Below the pieces are notes generated by a model that worked only from the letters and a program-made list of their open reading frames with translations, ran no database searches and was not told where the DNA came from. DNA of 54,682 nucleotides from Bdellovibrionota bacterium (GTDB taxonomy: Bacteria; Bdellovibrionota; UBA1018; CAUJDS01): contig CAUJDS010000003.1 of assembly GCA_963169695.1 (NCBI GenBank), positions 1 to 54,682 on the forward strand, given 5' to 3'. Below are positions 21,022 through 24,561 of the stretch, in pieces; positions within the stretch are counted from its first letter, which is position 1; each line of letters starts with the position of its first letter. Both the position numbers and the translations under genes were made by a program.

Positions 21022-22128
21022 TTAAATTCGCATGGGCATAATAACGTAGCAGTGATTTTTTTCTGCTGTCGATTGAAGAATCCCTGGACTCAATCGATCA
21101 CTAAAATGAAATTCGATTTTGTCTGAAGACGATACTTCTAAGTAATCTAACAAATAGCGAGCATTAAACCCGATATCGACTCCTGAAGCCTGATAGTCAA
21201 TTTCAACTTCCTCTCGAGCATCTCCCATGTCCGGATTGCTCGAGGTCACCACCAGGAGTCCTGAATCAAAATGAAGTTTTACGCCCCGACTTTTTTCGTG
21301 TGCAAGAAGACTTACCCTTCGAAGGGCTGATTGAAGAACTTCTCTTGAAAAAAGCGCGCGTCGATCCGTATTCTTAGGAATGACCTGCTTGTAATCTGGA
21401 TACTCGCCCTCGATAAGACGAACGAAAAGATACTGGTCTCCTGATTTGGCGAAAAAATAACCCCGGTCAAAGGCAAGTCCCAAAACGTCAGTGCTTTCAT
21501 CCAAAAGTTTCTTCAGTTCCATCAGTCCTTTTCGAGGAATGATGATGCCCCTCTTAAATTCTGGCATCTTAAGGAAAACTTCTTGATCCACAAACGATAG
21601 GCGATGCCCATCGGTCGCTGTCATACGCATTAAAGAATCGCTGATGTTCTCAAAGTAGACCCCGTTGAGGTGATAGCGAGTCGCGTCTGTAGAAACAGCA
21701 AAGGCTGTACAATGAATCATTTCCAATAAAGCAGGGACTCTTGCGTCATAATATTCTTTTGAAGCGAAGTCAGGAAGTGCTGGGTATTCCTCAGCTGAAA
21801 GACTCACAACATTGAAGCGAGAACGTCCCGCTAAAATTTCTACCCAATCATTGGACTTTCTTTTGATTTGAATTTCACCTGATGGAAGTTCTTTTACGAT
21901 ATCCAAAAAATGCTTGGCCGATAACGTAAGGGTTCCAGCCTCTGCGTTCTGTACCGGGATGGTGACTTTCATGCCAACTTCTAGATCCGTTGCACAAAGT
22001 GAAAGCCTCTGATCGGTAACTGAAAAAAGAATATTGGAAAGAATCTGGACGGTATTCTTTTTCTCTACGACTGATTGAACCTTTTGAAGGGCACTGAGGA
22101 GAGAATCTCTCTCAACACTAAATTTCAT
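21022..22128 (-). CDS. dnaN: DNA polymerase III beta sliding clamp
   Basis: A 368-aa protein of normal length for the three-domain clamp that holds the polymerase on DNA. It starts MKFSVERDSLLSALQKVQSVVEKKNTV and ends with the conserved YVIMPMRI. A strong ribosome site GGGAGG lies just before ATG 22128. It is first in the minus-strand run dnaN-recF-gyrB-fabH-gyrA and is transcribed away from oriC, co-directional with the left-moving fork. Confidence 0.97.
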   Translation of the reverse strand: MKFSVERDSLLSALQKVQSVVEKKNTVQILSNILFSVTDQRLSLCATDLEVGMKVTIPVQNAEAGTLTLSAKHFLDIVKELPSGEIQIKRKSNDWVEILAGRSRFNVVSLSAEEYPALPDFASKEYYDARVPALLEMIHCTAFAVSTDATRYHLNGVYFENISDSLMRMTATDGHRLSFVDQEVFLKMPEFKRGIIIPRKGLMELKKLLDESTDVLGLAFDRGYFFAKSGDQYLFVRLIEGEYPDYKQVIPKNTDRRALFSREVLQSALRRVSLLAHEKSRGVKLHFDSGLLVVTSSNPDMGDAREEVEIDYQASGVDIGFNARYLLDYLEVSSSDKIEFHFSDRLSPGILQSTAEKNHCYVIMPMRI

Positions 22129-22205
22129 GGCCTCCCTTTCATTGTCTCAACTGATTTCTTTCTCTCTCATAATGAGTGGTCCAAAGGAAGTATATATAAA
22201 TAAGG

Positions 22206-22220
22206 TAGTAGTAGTAGTAG
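22206..22220 (+). other. DnaA-trio element (five tandem TAG triplets) of the unwinding region
   Basis: Five TAG triplets in a row are followed by the G-rich spacer GGGGC and then two DnaA boxes (22225-22233 and 22233-22241), with AT-rich TATATATAAATAA on the other side. This is the order known from Bacillus subtilis: boxes, GC-rich spacer, DnaA-trios (3'-GAT-5' on the bound strand), then AT-rich DNA where DnaA stretches a single strand. It predicts opening toward dnaN. Identification is by motif and geometry only. Confidence 0.8.
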
Positions 22221-22366
22221 GGGCGGTGGATAAGTGGATAACTCACTTAAGCTGATAATATTATTAAAGAACCACCGGTGGATAACCTGGTGGATAACTC
22301 GGTGGATAAGTCTTCCATTTGGTGGATAACTTTTCATGTCACGGAGCGCATCTGAGTTATCCACCA

Positions 22367-22392
22367 GTTATCCACCAAGCTTGGTGGATAAC
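22367..22392. repeat. Perfect 26-nt palindrome made of two facing DnaA boxes
   Basis: Two 13-nt arms, GTTATCCACCAAG and its exact reverse complement, meet with no spacer. Each arm contains one TTATCCACC box. It lies in the left DnaA-box cluster of oriC. Confidence 0.9.
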
Positions 22393-22596
22393 TTTTAGTA
22401 TCCGATTAATATAATCAAAATATCGGCATTTCAGTCGTCATAATCAGCACAAAAAACAGAGTTATCCACCAAAACCAATCAAGGTAGTATGGCTTTTTAA
22501 TTCATCTTACGGAGTAGATTAAATGTGGATAAGTGGATAAGTGGTTTAACTCATTAAAATAGTTCATAAAAAAAATCGACATGCGGTGGATAACCT

Positions 22597-22666
22597 GGTG
22601 GATAACCTGGTGGATAACTGGTGGATAACTTTTTTTATCCACCAGTTATCCACCAGGTTATCCACC
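22597..22666. repeat. Perfect 32-bp inverted repeat carrying three DnaA boxes per arm
   Basis: The left arm (22597-22628) contains three GGTGGATAA boxes spaced by CCT and CT. The right arm (22635-22666) is its exact reverse complement with three TTATCCACC boxes. The 6-nt centre is CTTTTT. A further GGTGGATAA at 22585 extends the left array. Single-stranded or superhelical DNA here could form a long cruciform, or six DnaA molecules could bind as two facing trimers. Confidence 0.92.
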
Positions 22667-22790
22667 GACTTATCCCCAAAAATTGAATACTTGATGGTTA
22701 AGGTAAATTCAAAGCCATTTGGCAAGGCGCAAAGCAAAGTTATGGGTAATAGGGGAGTGAATAAGGATGTTTTACCGGAGGGACGCAGAT

Positions 22791-24411: not shown

Positions 24412-24561
24412 ATGAAAAGAACATTCCAGCCCAGTCGTAGGAAGCGGAGCCGAAAGCACGGGTTTAGAGCCAGAATGGCTACTAAAGGCGGTCGCAAGGT
24501 ATTAAAGCGTCGACGTTCAAAAGGACGTAAGAAGCTTGTTGTCCATGTCGCTTCCAAATAA
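24412..24561 (+). CDS. rpmH: 50S ribosomal protein L34
   Basis: A 49-aa highly basic protein: [19 protein letters not shown], then [20 protein letters not shown]. These are the L34 signature parts (KRTfQPs..kR.r.HGFr.RM.Tk.Gr.vl..RR.kGRk.L). The ORF overlaps rnpA by 17 nt. It is always found beside dnaA and rnpA near the origin in this type of locus. Confidence 0.97.

Follow-up and report, generated by a model that had tools for sequence, protein, structure and literature searches.

The gap between dnaN and dnaA in this Bdellovibrionota genome raises the question of where the chromosome is opened for replication, and whether a short run of TAG triplets beside dnaN marks the place. We addressed this in the window, by which we mean the whole 54,682-nucleotide stretch of DNA analyzed, and in relatives sampled at the order, class, and phylum levels, with "close" relatives being those at the order level. 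It is highly likely, judging from sequence comparisons, that 22188-22241 constitutes a DnaA-trio module, the basal unwinding system (BUS) of the chromosome's oriC.

Parts of the module and its genomic setting

The preliminary description placed an AT-rich flank, five TAG triplets, and two DnaA boxes sharing one base at this locus, and all of these can be read directly in the sequence (Table 1). Its spacer of GGGGC needs amending, since the first G is the end of the last TAG and the spacer itself is GGGC. The 2 boxes are co-oriented and offset by 8 bp, with the base at 22233 common to both, and each has a ninth base other than that of TTATCCACA (C and T, respectively). The 3' end of the TAG strand faces the boxes, and read away from them the array is 3'-GAT-5'.

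Table 1. Features of the dnaA-dnaN region, in coordinates of the window
Feature	Position	Strand	Basis or remark
dnaN	21022-22128	-	ORF, adjoins gap
AT-rich flank GTATATATAAATAA (TATATATAAATAA-type)	22190-22203	none	Sequence; expected first-melting site, dnaN side
DnaA-trios, five tandem 5'-TAG-3', TAGTAGTAGTAGTAG	22206-22220	+	Sequence, genome count, relatives
GC spacer GGGC, 4 bp	22221-22224	none	Sequence
Trio-proximal DnaA box TTATCCACC (GGTGGATAA on +)	22225-22233	-	Sequence
Second DnaA box TTATCCACT (AGTGGATAA on +)	22233-22241	-	Sequence
A/T-phased stretch CTCACTTAA...	22242-22271	none	Conserved A's about 10-11 bp apart
First further DnaA-box array, mostly TTATCCACC	22277-22391	- at 22277, 22289, 22301, 22321, 22383; + at 22357, 22368	
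Isolated DnaA box TTATCCACC	22462-22470	+	Position conserved
Second overlapping DnaA-box pair TTATCCACA/TTATCCACT (TGTGGATAAGTGGATAA on +)	22524-22540	-	Without trios
4 + 4 DnaA boxes as large inverted repeat	22585-22678		Arms 22588-22628 / 22635-22675
dnaA	22791-24557	-	ORF, TTG start at 24557 over-extended; matches TIGR00362 from residue 93 on
rpmH (L34)	24412-24561	+	Overlaps 5' end of mechanical dnaA ORF

A BUS is recognized by at least three 3'-NAN-5' trios, with GAT preferred, no more than 16 bp from a box, by co-oriented tandem boxes with the trios on the correct strand, and by a GC-rich spacer of 4-5 bp with an AT-rich far side. Here, five TAG trios lie on the correct strand 4 bp from the tandem boxes, with GGGC between them and GTATATATAAATAA beyond. 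The mechanism and breadth of the BUS have been described (PMC6669920, PMC8287927, PMC10721633), as has the combination of overlapping boxes with a GC spacer of 4-5 bp (PMC8235120).

The order of parts had been likened to that of the Bacillus subtilis basal unwinding element, and this likeness holds. In a comparison based on published papers and an alignment to structure 8btg, the B. subtilis BUS (boxes 6/7, a GC motif, and six DnaA-trios in incC) also runs from dnaA through boxes, GC spacer, trios, and AT-rich DNA to dnaN, and it shares the overlapping co-oriented box pair, the 4-bp GC spacer, the 3'-GAT-5' polarity, and Asn187/Ile190 of DnaA (PMC8235120, PMC10721633). The six trios of B. subtilis are degenerate, whereas the five found here are perfect and identical, and the locus further differs in its boxes (TTATCCACC/TTATCCACT), in the roughly 20 boxes of its gap, and in a rigid twin pair at a distance of about 296 bp. 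The oriC2 of Helicobacter pylori (ts1/ts2 boxes) likewise has a fused or overlapping box pair, a GC spacer, trios, and an AT-rich flank, and its trios are needed for unwinding in vitro (PMC8235120), but the H. pylori origin is bipartite and has a different box consensus.

The gene order rpmH-dnaA-dnaN-recF-gyrB is that of the Bdellovibrio cluster (PMC5124646). Because the first approximately 50 residues of the dnaA ORF are antisense to rpmH, the true dnaA start lies further in, probably close to residues 75-91 of the ORF. The dnaA-dnaN gap (22129-22790) spans 662 bp and has about 20 DnaA boxes in what look like 2 related halves, and the window as a whole contains 33 boxes with at most one mismatch versus 9.3 expected. 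GC skew changes sign and its cumulative curve reaches a minimum near 21-22 kb. The 3 features by which a chromosomal oriC is recognized, a dnaA-dnaN gap, a cluster of DnaA boxes, and a GC-skew switch, are thus all present, in keeping with the earlier suggestion that this is a likely Bdellovibrionota origin.

Another closely similar system is the oriC of B. bacteriovorus, a member of the same phylum with the same gene cluster, in which DnaA-trios and a short GC-rich stretch between them and the first box accompany unwinding mapped by P1 nuclease (Makowski et al. 2016, PMC5124646). A single-contig genome of 3,782,950 bp that we take to be B. bacteriovorus HD100 (G177) carries an identical TAGTAGTAGTAGTAGGGGC; the P1 unwinding data themselves belong to B. 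bacteriovorus. The B. bacteriovorus gap is about 250 bp long with eight boxes, 2 of them within dnaA, in contrast to the much longer gap and more numerous boxes here.

Within the gap, 16 of the 19 TTATCCAC boxes have a final C (TTATCCACC), while the boxes of most relatives end in A. This is an apparent concerted change of the box consensus to TTATCCACC, and no DnaA change was tied to the pattern. Past the box pair, A/T positions (TTAA, AAAT, AA) are conserved phylum-wide. The phased stretch at 22242-22271 is a possible bending or IHF-like site, and its TAA-N4-TTRAAA-like sequence is a partial match to the IHF consensus. An origin of the IHF-assisted E. coli type would carry an IHF site beside the DUE-proximal box. 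A search for the proteins placed IHF alpha above its cut-off and IHF beta below its curated cut-off, and an IHF site here is thus no more than a lead.

Uniqueness of the triplet run and its recurrence beside dnaN

The 2,788,662-base genome has a single (TAG)5 and no copy of the reversed control. The exact expectation under an order-2 Markov model is 3.7e-8 copies per 662-bp gap and 3e-4 genome-wide. There is no other perfect triplet run of at least four copies in the window, and no trio array at the other DnaA boxes of the gap, where more than one TAG lies within reach of the 22225-22241 pair only. The module is not a chance match.

If the triplets matter, they should be found in relatives, a check that could have gone against the preliminary description. 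Stretches upstream of dnaN were read in 43 genomes of the order and class and 59 others of the phylum, giving 102 scored genomes in which the module recurs beside dnaN, and the check did not count against the description. The common layout is a TATATATA-type flank, about five triplets, a GG-rich spacer, and a box/box pair, with the TATATATA(A) flank at the matching place in most relatives. Among the 33 order and class members with a recognizable box pair, 28 have a 4-bp spacer, and the boxes are offset by 8 bp. A strict pattern of four TAGs, 3-14 bases, and TGGATAA matched 11 of 46 class genomes and zero in the reversed control, and these matches fell directly upstream of dnaN wherever coordinates were compared (for example, G004, G009, G012, G019, G024, and G039). 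This exact triplet does not hold throughout the phylum, because members of one family (f9) mostly lack a TAG array at this place and have AT-rich triplets, for example TAT/TAA, instead. In 3 relatives of another family, f6 (L028, L029, and L032), dnaA lies about 4 kb from dnaN, yet the trio array is directly upstream of dnaN.

Perfect runs of five TAGs were found in 38 of the 102 genomes and runs of six in 2, making (TAG)5 the commonest of the perfect runs. The idea that five uninterrupted triplets are unusually clean therefore had to be given up, since at least five perfect TAGs occur in 40 genomes, including the presumed HD100.

A run of this kind might instead be a triplet microsatellite near the origin, made by chance or slippage and lacking a function of its own. 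Slippage can create triplet runs, and perfect copies are its simplest product. The run is nonetheless single-copy, and triplet, strand, phase, and spacer are the same in relatives whose DnaN is just 44-66% identical. This conservation already disfavors a microsatellite, as does the selective spectrum of central bases described below, and we consider that origin of the run extremely improbable.

Central bases of the trios and the DnaA protein

The related origins, about 100 in number, serve as a natural mutation experiment on the central base of the trio. Triplets were registered by scanning for the outer letters T and G with the center left free, anchored on the last TAG. Across the 102 genomes, the center of trios 2-4 was A in 263 cases, C in 34, T in 8, and G in 1. 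Mapped by parsimony onto an order-level DnaN tree, the central changes came to 11 A-to-C events, 1 A-to-T, and no A-to-G. Trios with a central C (TCG, TCA) occur at dnaN-proximal origins in L014, L015, L019, L022, L024, L028, L029, and L032, among others.

With B. subtilis DnaA, the central A can be replaced by C but not by G or T, and its amine contacts Asn187 (PMC10721633). The A-to-C pattern fits what the amine-capture model derived from that protein would predict. Domains III-IV of the DnaA encoded here align to B. subtilis DnaA in the BUS cryo-EM structure 8btg, the best PDB match, with Asn187/Ile190 corresponding to N330/I333. The DnaA expected of a BUS, which has the trio-contacting ISM residues together with the arginine-finger region (RxRTRFEWGL), is thus found here, with the latter kept as RIRTRFEWGL. 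The amine-contact Asn is kept in all 29 relatives' DnaA with a readable motif, 21 of which come from genomes with C-centered trios. In literature covering the DnaA-trio and cytosine, the titles and passages seen held no report of natural C-centered trios. Published genome scans in which 3'-NAN-5' trios are required (PMC8287927) would under-count them.

An alternative for the central bias alone invokes strand-biased mutation around the origin rather than base capture by DnaA. The mutation spectrum is not the same on leading and lagging strands, and the orientation of the module to dnaN is constant. However, most changes at the outer positions of these trios are transitions (T>C in 12 of 18 and G>A in 19 of 27, counts in which the register under-counts outer-position changes), while only 1 of 43 central changes is a transition. 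This contrast holds when each genus is counted once (Fisher p 4.6e-6, a guide only, as rows in the trio tallies are related by descent), and we regard mutation bias as unlikely. Melting does not explain the A-to-C bias either, because A>C and A>G are equal in their cost to duplex stability.

The same spectrum bears on another possibility, that the stretch is conserved mainly for dnaN expression, as a promoter or DnaA-autoregulated operator, and that a different AT-rich segment of the gap melts. The dnaN start is about 78-113 bp downstream of the stretch, DnaA boxes can double as operators, and a further AT-rich stretch is present near 22400-22460. A strict triplet phase with A/C centers is unlike a promoter, however, a usable trio array accompanies no other box in the gap, and in B. 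bacteriovorus unwinding was located at the trio-bearing DUE by P1 nuclease and primer extension (PMC5124646). A role mainly in dnaN expression is therefore very unlikely.

The order of the parts, their polarity, the spacer, the box pair, the flank, the gene context, the skew, the conservation, and the DnaA residues together point to an unwinding module that would open toward dnaN. By homology to the known systems, DnaA-ATP would dock at the overlapping box pair, and a DnaA filament would extend 3'->5' on the + strand across the five TAG trios, capturing their bases. The helix would thereby be opened toward dnaN, into the TATATATAAATAA stretch, and the helicase is expected to enter there. The remainder of the gap, including the trio-less pair at 22524-22540, would supply extra DnaA, probably through looping.

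The twin box pair and the distal half of the gap

The second overlapping pair has the orientation of the trio-bearing pair and lies 299 bp from it. Of 18 order genomes in which the pair is matched, with at most three mismatches, somewhere within a range of 460 bp, 14 have it at 293-299 bp in that orientation. The other boxes of the gap also keep their places in an alignment, and for this reason the gap looks like 2 related halves. The inverted repeat at 22585-22678 has 41-nt arms that are 93% complementary, with a single-strand fold of -42 kcal/mol (z -13.7).

In B. subtilis, a distal box acting via a loop is required, and artificial constructs show that it can work from 297 bp (PMC6669920). 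By analogy, a looping role for the 22524-22540 pair is plausible, and the rigid twin pair would offer a natural case of the distance tolerated in those constructs. We tentatively propose, as a possibility somewhat short of an even bet, that origins of this order consist of 2 related halves, each starting with a co-oriented overlapping box pair, the two pairs being separated by about 296 bp (approximately 28 helical turns). Trios would be kept by the dnaN-side pair only, the distal pair would give DnaA a second platform of its own (a loop partner or second-helicase site), and the DnaA of the phylum would also read natural C-centered trios (TCG, TCA) via the amine contact.

The DnaA-trio/BUS type of origin is already known, and the value added here is comparative. 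With the simplest way for the first reading to fail removed, the module adds a clear predicted unwinding site for an uncultured lineage. Its sequence and conservation indicate that it is very probably the switch at which an uncultured relative of the predatory Bdellovibrio opens its chromosome to start replication.
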